DNA of 36,057 nt from Thermoanaerobaculia bacterium (GTDB lineage Bacteria > Acidobacteriota > Thermoanaerobaculia > Multivoradales > JAHZIX01). The translations under genes were made by a program, and so were the position numbers. The notes under the pieces were generated by a model that did no database searches, was not told the DNA's origin, and saw only the letters and a program-made list of their open reading frames with translations. Of the stretch, positions 23,239-32,982 are shown piece by piece (within the stretch, counting starts at the first letter, position 1; each line of letters begins with the position of its first letter). The DNA lies in assembly GCA_027069135.1 (NCBI GenBank), contig JALXFE010000583.1, forward strand, positions 1 through 36,057, written 5' to 3'.

Positions 23239-26200
23239 ATGGCCGGGGAAACGAAGAACCGAGAGATTCGCGAGATAAAGATTCAGGGTGGTCGCGAGGT
23301 ACAGCGGCCCGGGGCGGCTCGGGGGGGCGTTGCCGGGGACGCCGGGGAGGCTCCATCCGACGCTGCCGGACTTGGCCGTTTCGGAGACCTGGTCGGCGCG
23401 ACATTGGCGACGGAGGTGCGGGTCGACGCCGCCCGGGGCGCCTCTTCGGGGAGTGTTTCGGAGAGCCTCGATGGGGTGCGGGACGACACGGTCTTGCAGC
23501 TGGAGCTTGAAGGTGGCGTCGAATGGTGGACGACGGCGGGCGAGCTGGCCGAATGTATCGCCGAGGCTTCGATGGCGGATGGGCGGGGCGGGGAGGACTC
23601 AGGGCTGCTGCGCGGCATCCTTACGATCCCGCAATTTCTGCCCTTCGGCGATCGAACTCGGGGCGGCGGCGGTCTACTGCTCCGGGTTCTGCGCCGTTTC
23701 GACGTCGACCCACCGGCCGGGGGGGCCAAGGCCCTGGCCCGTCGGCTGGAGGACCGTTTGGATCCGGCGCCGGGCCTCTACCGCTGCCCACGCCCGGACG
23801 GCCTTGGGGCTCGGATCGAGAGCTTCTCCGAGATCTCCGGCCGGGGTCCGGTGTTGATTCTGCTCCACGGTACCGCTTCGTCGACGGAGGGGAGCTTCGG
23901 CGCCTTCGGTACGGACGAACGGCTTCCGGATTGGAGTCGGTTACAGGAGACCTACGGTGACCGGATCCTCGCCTTCCAACACCGGACTCTGTCTCAAACC
24001 CCAGGGGAGAATGCCCTGGAGCTGGCGCGCCTGCTGCCCCAGGATGCCGAGATCCATCTGGTCTCCCACTCCCGGGGTGGCCTGATCGGGGAGCTCCTGT
24101 GCCGAGGTTCTTTCGGCGACGGTCGTACCGCGTTCTCCGATGCCGAGCTGGAGCTCTTCTCCGGCGAGGACCGGCGCCGGGACCGGCAAGCCCTCCGTGA
24201 TCTGCGCCAGGTGCTGGAGGAAAAGGCCTTCCGCATCGAGCGCTTCGTGCGGGTCGCCTGTCCGGCCCGGGGCACCCTCTTGGTATCCCGTCGATTGGAC
24301 CGCTACCTATCCCTGATGCTCAACGCCCTGGGGCTGGCGGTGGGCAGCAAACTCAACCCGGCCTACCAATTCCTCAAGGCTCTGCTCATCGGCCTGGTCA
24401 AGACGCGTACAGACCCGACTCTCCTGCCGGGGCTGGAGGCCATGATGCCCGGCTCGCCGTTGATCAAGCTGCTCAACCTCCGGGACGGGACGAGCGACGC
24501 CGACTTAACGGTGATCGCCGGTGACGTCGAGGGCAGCGGTGTCTTGAACCGACTCAAGGTCTTCGCCACGGATATGTTCTTTCGCCACGACCATGACCTG
24601 GTGGTGGATAGCGCCTCCATGTTCGGCGGAGCCCAACGCTCCCCAGGCCGTGCCCGCTACTTTTTCGAAAAGGGAAGCTCGACCCATCACTTCAACTACT
24701 TCAGCAATGCATCTACCAGCGCAAAGCTGGTCGCGGCCCTGAGGGCTGAAGGGCGCAAGATCGAGGGCTTCGAAAGCCTCGACGTCCGCCGCCGGCCGGA
24801 AGGGGTGCGCGGGATCGCCGCCAAAGGTGTGGTGGAACCCGGGCGTCTTCAGGAGTTGGAGCCGGACCGGCCGGTGGTCATCCTGCTGCCGGGAATCATG
24901 GGCAGCCGGCTCAAGGCCGACGACAATGTCATCTGGGCCGATCTCAGTGACCTGCTCAAGGGGCGCTTTACGGAGCTCGCCCGGACCTCCGAGGATCGGG
25001 TGTCGACCGCCGGCCTCCTCGAACGCGGCTACCGGGACCTTGCGCGCTTCCTGGCCCAAAGCTATGAAGTCGTACCCTTCGCCTACGATTGGCGGCAGTC
25101 CCTGAACACAGCGGCGGACGAGTTGGCTGGAGTGCTCGAGGATCTCCTGCAGCGCACCGACCAGCCGATCCGTCTGCTGGCCCACTCCATGGGCGGTCTC
25201 GTGGCCCGCCGCCTGCGTTCCCGCCACGAGGATCTTTGGAAGAAGTTGGGGGAGCGCCCGGGTTTTCGCTTGGTGATGCTCGGCACCCCCAATGGCGGCT
25301 CTCATTCCATCGCCGGCATCCTGTTGGGACGGGAGAAAGTGCTGCGCTTTCTCACCCTGGTGGGACCTAGAAAAAAGACGCGGCGGATCATTGGCGATTT
25401 CCCGGGGATCTTCGACATGTTGCCCTCCACTGCAGATGCCCTCGATGAGGCTTCCGAGGATCTCTACAAGGCGGAGACTTGGAGCTCCTGGCGAAAGATC
25501 GACGACGACGTCTTCGTACCCTCGGCAGAGATCCTAGAAGGGGCCCGGAGCTTTCGCTCGCAGCTCGACCAAGAGTCTCTGGACGACAAGTCCATCCTCT
25601 ACGTCGCCGGTCAATCCGCTAAGGGTACTCCGGTCGCTGTACGGCAAGGCCAGAACCGCTTCGGCCGGCCCCGTCTGGAGCTTCTCCTGAACCCCCGCGG
25701 CGACGGCCGAGTGCTGTGGGACACGGGGATCCCGGAACCCGTCAAGACCGGCCGTCGGGTCTGGTACGCGGCGGGGGTCAGCCACGGGGCGCTGGCCAAC
25801 GAGGAGCGAATCTTTCCCGCCCTGCGCGAGCTCTTGGAGCAGGGTCGGACCAGCAAGTTGGATCACAACGAGCCCCAGCTTCGCGGGGTCGCCGTCGGCG
25901 CCCGCAGCCTCGAAGAACCGGTTCTGCTGCCGGACGACGAAGACCTGGTGGCCGCGGCATTGGGCTATTCCCCGCGGCCTCCGGGGCGAGCCCGCGGCGG
26001 CGAGGTGCTGCGGGTGATGGTCACCCACGGCAGCCTGAGCTACGCCCGGGGGCCGGTCGCGGTGGGGCATTACGAGCGAGACCTCATCGTCGGTGCCGAA
26101 TCCTTTCTCGACTTCACCCTCGGAGGGAGATTGCGCGAGCGCCACAGCCTGGGCCTCTATCCGGGTGCGGAGAATACCGGTGAGGCGATCCTCGACGCCA

Positions 26201-28923
26201 ACGACCCGACCCGGGGCGCCTTGGTCCTGGGCCTCGGCCCCATCGGTGGTCTGGCGCCGGCCAAGATCTCTCGGGGAATGCGCCAGGCGGTGCTGCGGTA
26301 TGCGACGTTGATCGCTACCCTCGACGAATGGCCCGACATCGACGAAAGCGGTCGGCGATGCATCCGCCTGAGCTCCTTACTGGTCGGGACCGGCCAGGGC
26401 ACCGGTCTGCTGGTCGACGACGCCCTCTTGGCCATCATCCAGGGGGTGAGTAGCGCGGTCAGTCTCCTGCGGGGAGTCCTCGGAGACAAGGCTCCTTACG
26501 TTGGGTGTCTGGAATTTATCGAGCTCTACGAGCATCGGGCGGTGTGCGCCACGGAAGCCTTGCAACGATTGGCTTCGGTGGTCCAACCCGGGGAGTATCA
26601 GGCTCTCGAGTTGGAGCCCCTACTCCAGCGGGTCGAAGGGGGCCAGAGTGATATCACCTGCAGCAGCTCGGGTTGGTATCGGCGCCTGCAGATCGTCCAT
26701 GAGAAGCAGCCGGAGGGCACCTCCGAGAAGGATGGTTTCCGCGCTCTACGGTTCACCTCCCTGACCGAGCGTGCCCGAGCGGAAGTGCTCATGCTCCCCA
26801 CCCAGCGGAAGCTGGTGGATCGTTTCGTCCAGCATTCCATCGGTGATAGCGCGTGGCGTCCGGAAACAGCGCGAACGCTCTTCGAGCTCTTGGTCCCCAA
26901 CCAGCTCAAGGAATACGCACCGGACGACCTGGACCTGCTCTTGGTCCTCGACGAACACTCCGCAAGTTATCCCTGGGAGTTGATCGCTGATGGGCTGGGG
27001 GAGCGCGAGCCGCTGTCGGTACGGGCCGGTATGCTTCGGCAGCTCGCTTCCGAGACCTTCCGCGAGCAGCCCGTAGCCGCCGTCGGAAATACGGCCTTGG
27101 TGGTTGGCGATCCGCCCACCGGAAGCGCGATCTTCCCACCCCTGCCCGGCGCCCGCCGCGAGGCCCAGGATGTCGCCAGCGAGCTTCGCAGCCACGATTG
27201 GAAGGTCAATTCCCGGATTGGAAGCGCTCCGGAAGGCATCATCAGCGCCCTTTTCGCCGAGCCCTACCGGTTGCTTCACATCGCCGCTCACGGCACCTAC
27301 GACCCGCTGCACCCGGAGGCCACCGGCGTGGTCCTGGCCGAGGGCATGCTGCTCACCGCGGCGGAGATCGGGCAATTGCGCCAGATCCCGGAATTAGCGT
27401 TCATCAACTGCTGCCACCTGGGCCGCATCGAAAGCCCGGCTCCGAAAGCCGTCGCCTACCGCAACCGGATTGCCGCCAACCTGGGGTTGGAGCTGATCCG
27501 CATTGGCGTTCGGGCGGTCGTCATCGCCGGCTGGGTGGTGGACGACGGCGCCGCGGACACCTTTGCTAGTACTTTCTATAGTGCCTTGTTGGAGGGCGAG
27601 GAGTTTGGCAACGCCGTCAAGCGGGCCCGGCGCGCCACTTATCGCTATCATCCGGAGACCAACACCTGGGGAGCCTACCAATGCTACGGCGACCCATCCT
27701 ACAGTCTGGCGAAACGGCAGAAGCGCTCGGAAAGCGCTGTGCCCCATTGGGTAGCCCCGGTGCGACCGATCCACCTCCTGCGCAATATCCGCAGCCGAGC
27801 CCGTACAGGATCCCGGGCCGAGGATTTGCGGCGGGAGGTCGAAGCCATCGAGACCGCCTTGGTCGAGCGCTATCCGAGCTGGATGCAGCTGAGCCAGGTT
27901 CGTGAGGCTCTCGGCCGGGCCTGGGCCGAGTTGGCGGATCTGACCGCCTGGACTCTCGACGAAGCGGGATCGAAGAAAGGCTCCGGAAGGCTCCGGGCCT
28001 ACGATCGCGCGGTGGAGAATCTGCGGATCGCCCTGCGTTGCGAGGACGGTGAAGTCGGATTCAACGTGCGGGGCGAGCTCGCCAACCTGGAGGTCCGAGG
28101 CAAGACCGTGGCGTGGAGGCTGCGGCGCCGACCGCAGATCCTGGAGCTCCGGAAGCTACAGAAAGAGCAGCGCTCGATCGAGGCGGCTCTGGGCAATGCC
28201 ACCTCGGCCGAGCGCCCGAAATACGAGGCCAAGAGGCAGCGTCTCGAGGAGCAGGTCGCAAAGAAACTCCGGGACTGCGCCGCCGTCGACGACAAGGCCG
28301 CCTCCGAGATCGAGGGCCTATTGCAACGCCTCATGGCCTACGCCGATGAAGACAGCTCCTCCCGACGCTGGACGATGGTGGGTAGCGCTTCGAAGCGCAA
28401 GGCGGCGGTTTGTGGCGGCACGCGGGAGGCTGCACTAGAGCAAGCCTGCGAGGCCTATATTCAGGCCGACGAGTTGTCCCGAAGGACCTGTGGCCACCTC
28501 TCCCCCTACCCCGCCGGAAACTGGGCTTTGCTCAAGGTCGTGATGCACCTGGCGGACGGCAGGAAGAGTTGCGCCGGAGTAGTGGAGGTCCTCGACGAGC
28601 TCGAGGCCCCACGCCCCACCACTTCCTTCTGGGATCGCCTGATGCCGGTCCAGGTGAACCTCATCCGTGTCCTGATGAACATCGGCAAGGTAGATCCGGT
28701 GAATCTTGCCCCCATCCTCGCAGCCGTACGTCAGGCGGGCCGGCGGGGACCGTCGATCCACCAATTTGCACTCCTGCTCGAAAGTCTGGATACCCTGAGC
28801 GATATTCTCGATGATCGATGGCAAACATCCCGCGCCGGCGCCCAACGTCTGGCCACCGCCCGCCGCCTCGTCCGCCAGATCCGCTCCGAGCTGGCCACCC
28901 GAGTCGCCGCGAGTCGGCGTTGA
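23239..28923 (+). CDS. Giant CHAT protease / dual alpha-beta-hydrolase protein, probable conflict-system effector
   Basis: 1,894 residues with no signal peptide. Domains in order: a variable N-terminus (1-190); an alpha/beta hydrolase (about 200-500; VLILLHGTASS, nucleophile Ser in LVSHSRGGL near 276), like the one often paired with CHAT (DUF7379-type); an LCAT/PGAP1-like lipase (about 540-880; VVILLPGIMGSRL, FAYDWRQSLN, Ser650 in LAHSMGGLV, LGTPNGGS); a region with GALVLGLGPIGGLAPAKIS (about 920-1120) recalling the macro-like N-domain of M17 aminopeptidases; a CHAT domain (about 1230-1495) with His1351 in HIAAHGTYD and Cys1392 in FINCCHLG; and a helical TPR/coiled-coil tail (about 1515-1894). 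CHAT proteases are caspase-like and common in bacterial conflict systems. GGAGGG precedes ATG 23239. A toxin-antitoxin pair lies downstream. The biological role is inferred. Confidence 0.93.
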   Translation: MAGETKNREIREIKIQGGREVQRPGAARGGVAGDAGEAPSDAAGLGRFGDLVGATLATEVRVDAARGASSGSVSESLDGVRDDTVLQLELEGGVEWWTTAGELAECIAEASMADGRGGEDSGLLRGILTIPQFLPFGDRTRGGGGLLLRVLRRFDVDPPAGGAKALARRLEDRLDPAPGLYRCPRPDGLGARIESFSEISGRGPVLILLHGTASSTEGSFGAFGTDERLPDWSRLQETYGDRILAFQHRTLSQTPGENALELARLLPQDAEIHLVSHSRGGLIGELLCRGSFGDGRTAFSDAELELFSGEDRRRDRQALRDLRQVLEEKAFRIERFVRVACPARGTLLVSRRLDRYLSLMLNALGLAVGSKLNPAYQFLKALLIGLVKTRTDPTLLPGLEAMMPGSPLIKLLNLRDGTSDADLTVIAGDVEGSGVLNRLKVFATDMFFRHDHDLVVDSASMFGGAQRSPGRARYFFEKGSSTHHFNYFSNASTSAKLVAALRAEGRKIEGFESLDVRRRPEGVRGIAAKGVVEPGRLQELEPDRPVVILLPGIMGSRLKADDNVIWADLSDLLKGRFTELARTSEDRVSTAGLLERGYRDLARFLAQSYEVVPFAYDWRQSLNTAADELAGVLEDLLQRTDQPIRLLAHSMGGLVARRLRSRHEDLWKKLGERPGFRLVMLGTPNGGSHSIAGILLGREKVLRFLTLVGPRKKTRRIIGDFPGIFDMLPSTADALDEASEDLYKAETWSSWRKIDDDVFVPSAEILEGARSFRSQLDQESLDDKSILYVAGQSAKGTPVAVRQGQNRFGRPRLELLLNPRGDGRVLWDTGIPEPVKTGRRVWYAAGVSHGALANEERIFPALRELLEQGRTSKLDHNEPQLRGVAVGARSLEEPVLLPDDEDLVAAALGYSPRPPGRARGGEVLRVMVTHGSLSYARGPVAVGHYERDLIVGAESFLDFTLGGRLRERHSLGLYPGAENTGEAILDANDPTRGALVLGLGPIGGLAPAKISRGMRQAVLRYATLIATLDEWPDIDESGRRCIRLSSLLVGTGQGTGLLVDDALLAIIQGVSSAVSLLRGVLGDKAPYVGCLEFIELYEHRAVCATEALQRLASVVQPGEYQALELEPLLQRVEGGQSDITCSSSGWYRRLQIVHEKQPEGTSEKDGFRALRFTSLTERARAEVLMLPTQRKLVDRFVQHSIGDSAWRPETARTLFELLVPNQLKEYAPDDLDLLLVLDEHSASYPWELIADGLGEREPLSVRAGMLRQLASETFREQPVAAVGNTALVVGDPPTGSAIFPPLPGARREAQDVASELRSHDWKVNSRIGSAPEGIISALFAEPYRLLHIAAHGTYDPLHPEATGVVLAEGMLLTAAEIGQLRQIPELAFINCCHLGRIESPAPKAVAYRNRIAANLGLELIRIGVRAVVIAGWVVDDGAADTFASTFYSALLEGEEFGNAVKRARRATYRYHPETNTWGAYQCYGDPSYSLAKRQKRSESAVPHWVAPVRPIHLLRNIRSRARTGSRAEDLRREVEAIETALVERYPSWMQLSQVREALGRAWAELADLTAWTLDEAGSKKGSGRLRAYDRAVENLRIALRCEDGEVGFNVRGELANLEVRGKTVAWRLRRRPQILELRKLQKEQRSIEAALGNATSAERPKYEAKRQRLEEQVAKKLRDCAAVDDKAASEIEGLLQRLMAYADEDSSSRRWTMVGSASKRKAAVCGGTREAALEQACEAYIQADELSRRTCGHLSPYPAGNWALLKVVMHLADGRKSCAGVVEVLDELEAPRPTTSFWDRLMPVQVNLIRVLMNIGKVDPVNLAPILAAVRQAGRRGPSIHQFALLLESLDTLSDILDDRWQTSRAGAQRLATARRLVRQIRSELATRVAASRR

Positions 28924-30537: not shown

Positions 30538-31869
30538 ATGAGCATGCCGACTACAACGGAAACGTCGACCCTCCCGAAGAACTTCCACGACGCCGTCGTG
30601 CGTTGGAAGGACACCTACCTCTCGGATTTCGATTTCCTGATCGAGAATTGGGATCAGCATTTCCCCAACGAGCCACAGCTTGAGCTTTGCGCCTACCGGG
30701 AAAAGGGGATGTGCGATCGTATCGAGTGCGGCGAACAGGTTGGAGATCCGAAATTCCTGCGTGCCGGTGACCTCGACGCGAAGCGCGGGCACCAGCTTCT
30801 AGGAGCGATACGTGCCCAGGCGAGCACGGAGTTTGGCTCTATCCAGCAGCATCGCCTGACCCTGGCCCGGGCACCGGATGAGCAGGACCAGATGTGGGTC
30901 CTGCGGATGATGGCGGAGGAGCTTCGGCACGGATATCAGATGCTCCACCTGCTGCTGGACGACGATTGGAGCTCGGTATCCGAGCTCTCCAGCGCAGATA
31001 TGGTCGAGGAAATCCTCTCCATGACCACCGGCTCTCACGTCCTGGGCGCCTTCAATATCGACTTCGATTCCTTCGTCGACAACGTCGTCTTCTGCGCTCT
31101 CATCGACCGGGTGGGCAAGTACCAGTTGGCGATGCAGAAGCAGAGCGCCTATCTGCCCATGGCCGAGAGCATGCCCCAGATGCTCCGGGAGGAGGCCTTT
31201 CATCTGGCCACCGGCGTGGTTCCCATGCGCAAATGGGTGACCCAGGCCGCTGCGGGAGAGGTCTACGTGACCCTCGGCAGCCTCCAGAAGGCCATCAACA
31301 AATGGCTACCCCGAGGTCTCGAGATGTTCGGCGACGAGCGCGGCGGAGGCACCAATGTGCGCTTGGGTCTCAAGCCGCAAAAGAATCGGGAAGCGCAGGA
31401 GCTGTACTACAAAGAGGTCGCGAAGGTCGTTGCCGATCTCAACATGCGCTACCTCCGAGCTCGGCTTCCGGATCTGAGTCTGGCGCAAGCCAAGAAGACC
31501 CTGGCGCGCATCGTCGAAGGCGGCGAGGTCGTCGGGGGCATCGCTCCGGAGAGGCTTCTGCGGGCGCCTCATGCGCACTTCTTTCGGCGGCGGGGCGAGC
31601 CAGCCTTCGAGATGGTGGGGGTTGACGGGGAGGAATTTACCGATGTTGACGAGTACTCTAGGCACCTCTCCCAGCATCTCCCGGAGTCCTATCTGGCGAG
31701 CCGTGACTTTCGCTCGTTTCTCGAGTTGCTTCGCCAAGTCGATGTCGGGGATGTCGCCGCGGCGGAGGCCTCGCGCCAGGCGCCTTCCCTACGGCGGGTC
31801 GGCGGGACCTGTCCTTGTTCCAAATCCGTACGCTGGGTGGTCGAAGCCACGGCTCCGGCCGTGATCTAG
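30538..31869 (+). CDS. BoxB/PaaA-like diiron oxygenase (benzoyl-CoA epoxidase-like)
   Basis: A 443-residue ferritin-like protein resembling BoxB, the oxygenase of benzoyl-CoA 2,3-epoxidase, and more distantly PaaA. Diiron ligands are visible in the expected order: Glu in ASTEFGSIQQHR, EExxH in MAEELRHGYQ, and EExxH in LREEAFHLATG. The segment ALIDRVGKYQLAMQKQSAYLP and the C-terminal DGEEFTDVDEYSRHLSQHLP align with BoxB landmarks. Near the end is an extra CPC motif (GGTCPCSKS). No BoxA reductase, BoxC lyase or paaBCDE is in the window, so the substrate may differ. AGGAG lies 12 bp before ATG 30538. The stop codon TAG lies inside the left end of a MITE-like element. Confidence 0.82.
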   Translation: MSMPTTTETSTLPKNFHDAVVRWKDTYLSDFDFLIENWDQHFPNEPQLELCAYREKGMCDRIECGEQVGDPKFLRAGDLDAKRGHQLLGAIRAQASTEFGSIQQHRLTLARAPDEQDQMWVLRMMAEELRHGYQMLHLLLDDDWSSVSELSSADMVEEILSMTTGSHVLGAFNIDFDSFVDNVVFCALIDRVGKYQLAMQKQSAYLPMAESMPQMLREEAFHLATGVVPMRKWVTQAAAGEVYVTLGSLQKAINKWLPRGLEMFGDERGGGTNVRLGLKPQKNREAQELYYKEVAKVVADLNMRYLRARLPDLSLAQAKKTLARIVEGGEVVGGIAPERLLRAPHAHFFRRRGEPAFEMVGVDGEEFTDVDEYSRHLSQHLPESYLASRDFRSFLELLRQVDVGDVAAAEASRQAPSLRRVGGTCPCSKSVRWVVEATAPAVI

Positions 31870-32032
31870 CAGCCCGTGGCAAAAGTCGAACCGCGCTCCG
31901 AGCGGTTCTATTCGGCCGACTCTTCGTTGTCAAACCTCGATGATTCTAAGAATCATCTGCGGTTTTCCGCCTTGATTCGGCTCGAATACTCCTCGCTCTC
32001 GCTAGCGCCTGACTTCTGCCACGGGCTGCTAG
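31866..32032. mobile_element. 167-bp MITE-like element with 22-bp terminal inverted repeats
   Basis: The ends 31866-31887 (CTAGCAGCCCGTGGCAAAAG, then TC) and 32011-32032 (its reverse complement with one mismatch, A versus G) form near-perfect 22-bp inverted repeats. The interior carries no ORF but three more perfect hairpins: GAACCGC/GCGGTTC (31888-31908), GATGATTCT/AGAATCATC (31939-31957) and GCGG-TTTT-CCGC (31959-31970). If the CTAG ends are read as a TA target flanking GCAGCCCG...CGGGCTGC, the target duplication would be TA, as in IS630/Tc1-mariner elements. It lies between the BoxB-like gene and proline dehydrogenase. No transposase is encoded, so it would be mobilised in trans. Only one copy is in this window. 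Confidence 0.8.
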
Positions 32033-32070
32033 AATCTGGCCATGGTCAATAGAGAGCTCTTTTTGAATTC

Positions 32071-32982
32071 ATGAGAGTGTTCAGTCGGTTGGTGGTGACC
32101 ACGTTGCCCTTGGTGCCGAAGCTCATCGTGGGCAAGGTCGCCTCGCGGTACGTCGCTGGCTCCACCCTGGAGGAAGCCTTGGGCACCGTGGAGCGGCTCA
32201 ACGGGGACGGGGCGATGGCCACTCTGGACATCCTGGGGGAGGAAGTCCGGGATGTCGATCGTGCCCAAGCCGCCGTAGAAGGGTACCTGAGCCTCTACCG
32301 AGCCATCGCGGACCGAGGGCTCGATGCCAACGTCTCCGTCAAACCCACTATGTTGGGGCTGAAGATCGATGCGGCGGTCTTCAAGGGCCATATCGCCCGA
32401 CTCGCTCAAGCGGCGAAGAAACGCGGCAATTTTCTGCGCCTCGACATGGAAGACCGGACCACGACCGATCGCACCCTCGAGACCTACCGCGAGCTCCATC
32501 CCCGCTTTCCCGATATCGGTGTCGTGCTTCAGGCCTATATGCGGCGCACCTTGAGGGATATCGACGAGCTCCCCGCGGAGGGGGCCAACGTACGGTTGTG
32601 CAAAGGGATCTACATCGAGCCACGGAAAGACTCCTTCAAGGGATACGAGACGATCCGACTCAACTTCCTGGCGGCACTCGAAAAGCTTTTGCGGCGCGGG
32701 GCTTATGTCGGTATCGCAACCCATGACGAGCACCTGGTCTGCGGGGCCTTGGGCCTGATCGACCGCTTAGGGGTCGATCGGGATCGTTATGAATTCCAGA
32801 TGCTTCTCGGAGTGGATCGAACTCTGCGCCGGATTCTCTTGGACGAAGGCCATAGATTGCGGGTGTATGTTCCCTTCGGCCCGGATTGGTACCATTACTC
32901 TATGCGGCGCCTTCGGGAGAATCCGGAGGTCGCCCGGCATGTGATCCGGGCGATGCTGCCGTGGAATCGGGAGACATCATGA
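32071..32982 (+). CDS. Proline dehydrogenase (PRODH)
   Basis: A 303-residue monofunctional FAD-dependent proline dehydrogenase that oxidises L-proline to pyrroline-5-carboxylate and passes electrons to quinone at the inner membrane. Barrel signatures are NVSVKPTMLGL, FLRLDMEDRTTTD, GVVLQAYMRRT, VRLCKGIYIEP, GIATHDEHLV and the C-terminal FQMLLGVDR plus YVPFGPDWYHYSMRRLRENP. The length matches monofunctional PRODH rather than the large PutA fusion. ATG 32071 begins 38 bp after the MITE-like element with only a weak GAGAG upstream. A -10-like TAGAAT sits at the element's right junction (32030-32035). It overlaps proC by 4 bp. Confidence 0.93.
   Translation: MRVFSRLVVTTLPLVPKLIVGKVASRYVAGSTLEEALGTVERLNGDGAMATLDILGEEVRDVDRAQAAVEGYLSLYRAIADRGLDANVSVKPTMLGLKIDAAVFKGHIARLAQAAKKRGNFLRLDMEDRTTTDRTLETYRELHPRFPDIGVVLQAYMRRTLRDIDELPAEGANVRLCKGIYIEPRKDSFKGYETIRLNFLAALEKLLRRGAYVGIATHDEHLVCGALGLIDRLGVDRDRYEFQMLLGVDRTLRRILLDEGHRLRVYVPFGPDWYHYSMRRLRENPEVARHVIRAMLPWNRETS

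Follow-up and report, generated by a model that had tools for sequence, protein, structure and literature searches.

The stretch between a PaaA/PaaC-like gene and a proline dehydrogenase gene in the analysed window (the whole 36,057-nucleotide stretch from contig JALXFE010000583.1, Thermoanaerobaculia bacterium) is almost certainly a copy of a MITE family. It is 159 bp long and non-coding, ends in 18-bp terminal inverted repeats (TIRs), and would be moved in trans by an IS1182/IS5-like transposase encoded by insertion sequences (ISs) with the same ends. The element is of an ordinary kind, a MITE, but belongs to a new family of that kind. Its insertions were found on stop codons more often than other potential target sites were. 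The coordinates of the features in the window are listed in Table 1.

Table 1. Features at the insertion locus, in window coordinates
Feature	Positions	Strand	Basis or remark
PaaA/PaaC-like (BoxB-like) gene	30538-31869	+	ORF of 443 aa; PF05138, E 3.5e-9; G003 orthologue 76% identical
Left CTAG (YTAR) target duplication copy	31866-31869	.	Direct reading; 4-bp rule from asymmetric copies
MITE body	31870-32028	+	159 bp; copies as given in the text; bodies in G002 158-159 bp
Left TIR, CAGCCCGTGGCAAAAGTC	31870-31887	+	First 16 bases identical in the full-length IS G325:C5:45040-46521
Internal CTAG of the MITE	32002-32005	.	Landing site for a second MITE in at least 5 other copies
Right TIR, CAGCCCGTGGCAGAAGTC (read on the - strand)	32011-32028	-	One mismatch against the left TIR
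Right CTAG target duplication copy	32029-32032	.	As for the left copy
TAGAAT, -10-like hexamer	32030-32035	+	Already in the empty site (joined flanks CTAGAAT); no matching -35
Proline dehydrogenase gene, downstream	32071-32982	+	PF01619, E 5.6e-32

Structure of the element

Inverted arms of 23 nt with 96% complementarity were located at 31865-31887 and 32011-32033; according to shuffled sequences, none are expected by chance, and no chance counterpart was detected within the window. The earlier note had described an element of 167 bp with 22-bp TIRs and one mismatch; the inverted ends are real, and when the CTAG duplications are set aside, the body is reduced to 159 bp and the TIRs to 18 bp, still with one mismatch. 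The region between the arms folds back over its full length (-89 kcal/mol, z = -9 against shuffles), and the MITE matches its reverse complement at 72% identity, so that a single imperfect foldback of full length replaces the three internal hairpins proposed before. All six frames were checked, and no ORF of note was obtained, in agreement with the same note. The element is thus short (<500 bp) and non-coding with TIRs, occurs in multiple dispersed copies on many contigs, is flanked by a 4-bp YTAR duplication for which asymmetric cases were decisive, and has ends in common with autonomous ISs (in G325, G187, G128, G362 and G394; none in its own assembly).

The TAG stop codon of the PaaA/PaaC-like gene (31867-31869) falls inside the left CTAG duplication. 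Deletion in silico of the element together with one CTAG gave GTG ATC TAG AAT, in which this stop is unchanged; the proposal that the insertion split the TAG of the BoxB-like gene and recreated the same stop, with ATC TAG AAT remaining after excision, was therefore upheld. Elsewhere in the window, positions 23239-28923 encode an 1894-aa protein with DUF7379, LCAT/lipase-like, CHAT protease and TPR-S domains, which resembles an effector or defence protein.

Genomic distribution

Other copies were sought, as had been proposed, in the genome and in relatives. In the own genome (G000; 7.17 Mb in 626 contigs), approximately 40 full or near-full copies were scored in addition to truncated ones, with identities of 82-99%; copy counts for this genome refer to the scored set, compiled from search output and fetched sequence stretches. 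MITE ends (≤2 mismatches) were present at 142 places in the same genome, against 8 for a reversed control. Genome G002, from the same family, gave 43 matches at approximately 80% identity, and G001 and G003 gave a single match each. Of 396 genomes of the phylum, 13 contained exact MITE ends, as did two Hydrogenedentota MAGs; in one of these MAGs, the core shares 66-68% identity with the copy in the window, compared with approximately 47% for shuffled sequence.

G003, a member of the same genus, keeps the acetyltransferase (GNAT), PaaA-like and proline dehydrogenase genes in this order at the orthologous locus, without the MITE; the element is therefore not an ancient conserved part of the locus. 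The PaaA-like gene of G003 stops at a different stop codon, and the intergenic gap that the MITE occupies in the window contains a 17-bp tandem repeat there (CTTCCCAAGATTACAGG, 7.5 copies; L175:1273-1397). Comparison with an empty site in a relative succeeded in part: the G003 locus lacks the MITE but is too diverged to provide a clean pre-insertion site, and no empty site was obtained from a close strain. A repeat restricted to this locus and conserved in all relatives would, according to the earlier note, have spoken against mobility, whereas the repeat is multi-copy and missing from G003; these two properties, together with the autonomous IS relatives described below, support the mobile, MITE-like nature that had been suggested.

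Two further forms were observed among the copies. A second MITE (~153 bp, ends TGTCCCGATTG and CAATCGGGACA, CTAG flanks) was nested in the internal CTAG of the first (window equivalent 32002-32005) at G000 L177, L192, L203, L204 and L206, and also at L180, L195 and L200; it occurs in both orientations, which indicates at least two independent nested insertions. A 65-bp copy at L188:1465-1529 (G000:C196), consisting of both ends and a few inner bases with CTAG on each side, is a further deletion product.

Target site duplication

Asymmetric flank pairs were CTAA/CTAA (six copies), TTAG/TTAG (one) and TTAA/TTAA (one) in G000, and TTAG/TTAG (four), CTAA/CTAA (two) and TTGG/TTGG (one) in G002; off-consensus flanks, CTAT/CTAT and CTAC/CTAC, were observed at full-length ISs of G187. 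Because asymmetric direct repeats flank both copies and ISs, the duplication is assigned as 4 bp of YTAR (here CTAG), which sets the limits of the body in Table 1. This is the IS5-like choice of target, and it displaces the earlier assignment of TA as the duplicated sequence.

Read in the orientation of the element, seven of the eight TTAG-left copies of G000 (L002, L005, L007, L014, L017, L191 and L204) are followed by CTAG on the right, in contrast to G002, where TTAG/TTAG is the rule. A plain 4-bp duplication does not account for these one-sided copies, and they count against the explanation favoured here.

Insertion sequences with the same ends

Related genomes contained complete ISs of approximately 1.46-1.52 kb that have the ends of the MITE and are flanked by 4-bp duplications of YTAR type. 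The IS at G325:C5:45040-46521 (1482 bp, TTAA on both sides, ends CAGCCCGTGGCAAAAG) begins at both ends with the same 16 bases as the MITE and encodes a 444-aa transposase with DUF772 and DDE_Tnp_1_6 domains, whose scores against the IS1182 and IS5_4 models were 178 bits (cut-off 270) and 78 bits (cut-off 140), respectively. Its relatives with matching ends (56-87% identity) were located in G187, G128, G382, G362, G394 and G002. The model of the IS1182 family (NCBIfam NF033551), with which the partner shares DUF772 and DDE_Tnp_1_6, scored best; four partner transposases, however, reached 174-192 bits, under the family cut-off of 270. With the IS5 model (NF033581), transposases of ISs with type A ends (see below) gave 78-115 bits against a cut-off of 140, which was passed solely by the type B IS of G002:C251 (254 bits). 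Because the scores lie below the cut-offs, the partner is called IS1182/IS5-like and is not filed as an IS1182 member. Fragments of the same transposase group were detected in Hydrogenedentota MAGs, and genomes carrying MITE ends often, not always, carry the IS.

An autonomous IS with these ends, suggested earlier as a check, is thus present in related genomes (G325 and others) but not in the own assembly, where a search for a full-length partner transposase yielded no more than an IS1182 member in C559 with 30% identity. This absence is weak evidence because the assembly is divided into 626 contigs and many copies lie at contig ends.

Several elements of the own genome were considered as partner and rejected. 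The IS1182 of C559 has similar but different ends (CTAGGAGCCTGTCGCA), and the IS630, IS1380 and IS701 elements have other ends. At the IS4-family (DUF4372) element of G000:C396 (4171-4541, L212; the contig stops within its transposase), a MITE-like end runs directly into CACTCCTGTCC, which resembles the G002 IS4 end CACTGCTGTCCC, and a 61% identical relative is without CAGCCC ends; to judge from the sequence, this appears to be an IS4 element inserted into a MITE end and not a partner.

In the mechanism proposed, the transposase of the IS would bind the ends common to IS and MITE, and the element would be cut out (or copied) and inserted at YTAR through a staggered cut of 4 bp; filling of the gaps would leave YTAR duplicated on each side. 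Where YTAR overlies a stop codon, the upstream gene would retain its last codon and stop, the MITE becoming downstream non-coding DNA; stop-codon and intergenic insertions would survive, and those within genes would mostly be lost.

Insertions at stop codons

Positions 2-4 of YTAR are TAA or TAG, and YTAR is its own reverse-complement pattern. Since duplication copies this triplet as well, the stop is regained after every insertion on a stop codon, on either strand, as an automatic outcome of target duplication and not as a lucky accident.

For the count of such insertions, elements were cut out by script under a strict element definition, genes were called, and each target site was classed; gene calling was performed with a simple script using a codon-usage score trained on the window. 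A stop codon of a called gene was hit by 22 of 80 distinct insertions from several genomes (G000, 9/36; G002, 11/31; others, 2/13); for the other YTAR sites of these flanks the count was 30 of 443 (G000, 16/226; G002, 9/83; others, 5/134; pooled Fisher p = 5e-7). Only three of the 80 insertions lay inside genes. With non-coding sites only and matching by 4-mer, the 22 stop-codon insertions compare with 8.9 expected. For G000 with controls kept 500 bases from edges, the proportions were 9/33 and 9/172 (p = 4e-4; non-coding sites, p = 0.006), whereas the comparison among non-coding sites gave no significant difference (p = 0.24) when only the 36-kb window served as control. The excess relative to non-coding YTAR sites thus varies with the control chosen. 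Of 20 such genes tested, 17 had a Pfam domain in the called frame, one of them weakly (IS200-like, below cut-off), and in many the domain ends no more than approximately 20 residues from the stop (aconitase, gamma-glutamyltranspeptidase, uridine kinase, AcrB C-terminus, SspB and UnbV).

The simplest reading of the excess is selection, by which coding insertions would be lost and stop-codon insertions would be neutral. Active targeting, directed for example at the places where transcription ends or at a structure linked to the ribosome, would agree with the excess over non-coding sites and with its appearance in two genomes separately; as intergenic sites upstream of genes are also selected, however, selection alone may suffice, and the excess over non-coding sites does not reach significance against the small window control. 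Targeting is accordingly considered unlikely as the cause, and survival of harmless insertions is preferred. A literature search of partial coverage gave no report of a stop-codon bias for any bacterial MITE, and the words "stop codon" are absent from the main text of a 2024 review of prokaryotic MITEs (PMC10969869); the bias is apparently undescribed.

Two types of ends on one core

In G002, two types of ends, A (CAGCCCGTGG..) and B (GAGCYTGCTGAAAAAC..), occur on the same MITE core, with CTAG flanks in both, and a hybrid copy at L240 has one end of each type. The G002 cores are 95% identical within a group and approximately 82% identical to the other group. Type B ends correspond to those of an IS in G002:C251 (L232:590-1935; 1346 bp; IS5_4, 254 bits), and type A ends to those of an IS1182-like IS at G002:C4. 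Since there are two types of ends, each matching a different IS, the core is carried by two end systems. In a tree of short cores, type B groups with the type A copy of G001 and not with G002 type A, with modest support; it is possible that the ends were changed by conversion or stepwise. Type B-ended loci in G002 are L061, L213-L223, L228, L229 and L233.

A joint interpretation is put forward tentatively, with rather less than even confidence: that YTAR makes stop codons preferred and harmless landing sites, holding about a quarter of the surviving copies, and that the G002 core with two sets of ends (IS1182-like and IS5) and one hybrid represents a MITE core able to change its transposase.

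Upstream region of the proline dehydrogenase gene

The earlier note had pointed to new sequence placed upstream of a -10-like TAGAAT. The hexamer is present, and the MITE alters the sequence upstream of it, 36 bp before the ATG; TAGAAT itself predates the MITE, and in a promoter scan no hexamer pair made use of it and no -35-like hexamer was found at proper spacing. Inside the MITE, one 9-of-12 promoter-like pair was detected on the + strand (31927-31956). Even allowing that promoters of this phylum may depart from the sigma-70 consensus, it is very unlikely that the MITE provides a new promoter to the proline dehydrogenase gene.

Conservation of the foldback and other origins

In 22 diverse copies, 95% of the cells of the core helices are paired, and 35 double changes were counted against 10.8 in column shuffles; sliding the helix partners abolished the covariation signal. 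The core foldback is kept through sequence change and may serve transposition, RNA stability or neither. Covariation of the core helices across genomes, the strong foldback and the location after stop codons would suit a host structured RNA or bidirectional terminator spread for its function, but the covariation could also stem from a foldback element having to stay foldback, and the flanking duplications, the IS relatives with the same ends, the patchy distribution, the absence at the orthologous locus, the lack of a T run after the hairpin and the lack of any Rfam family (a chance-level match only, 15 bits against a gathering value of 40) make such an origin extremely improbable.

An IS630/Tc1-type MITE duplicating TA, like RUP and Correia elements, is given as little credence: most flanks are CTAG, where TA and CTAG duplications look alike, and the own genome holds one IS630 transposase fragment, but CTAA/CTAA, TTAG/TTAG, CTAT/CTAT, CTAC/CTAC and TTGG/TTGG require a 4-bp duplication, the full-length ISs with these ends encode DUF772/DDE_Tnp_1_6 transposases and not DDE_3, and the sole DDE_3 (IS630) locus is without the MITE ends (CAGCCCGTGG). 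A TA duplication would point to an IS630/Tc1 partner, whereas the partner found is IS1182/IS5-like.

Comparison with known elements and significance

As a MITE that would be mobilised by an IS1182/IS5-like transposase, the present element resembles MITEPsy1 of Pseudomonas syringae, which is short and non-coding (100 nt, 18-nt TIRs), uses a CTAG or YTAA target with a 4-nt duplication, and has ends like those of a resident IS, ISPsy2, from which it is likely derived (PMC3189936). MITEPsy1 differs in its own TIR sequence (GGAAGGTCTGAAAAAGCC) and size, and its transposition was caught on an entrapment plasmid, whereas mobility of the present MITE is deduced from sequence comparison; a stop-codon bias was not found in the passages of that account consulted. 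The IS5 group, with E. coli IS5 and its CTAA/CTAG targets (PMC11677980), shares the 4-bp YTAR-type target and differs in its ends and transposase group, the partner here scoring best, below the cut-off, with the IS1182 model. RUP of Streptococcus pneumoniae and the Correia elements of Neisseria are likewise high-copy non-coding MITEs of <200 bp, foldback and intergenic, but are A+T-rich, duplicate TA and, for RUP, have an IS630-type partner (PMC2229807). ISPsp10 (IS5 family, group IS427) inserts upstream of TAA in the target, which supplies a stop codon (PMC4133298); that stop serves its own transposase, whereas in the present MITE the stop of the host gene is kept.

Two results raise the finding above the routine, namely the stop-codon bias that was measured and the swap of ends in a related genome. 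A target that contains a stop and is duplicated provides a simple, testable rule for the spread of a DNA parasite in a gene-dense genome with the genes left unbroken. For annotation, stop codons before such MITEs are true stops, and such MITEs explain many contig breaks in assemblies of this kind. G002, with the same core, two types of ends and two ISs, offers natural material on how a MITE exchanges its transposase.
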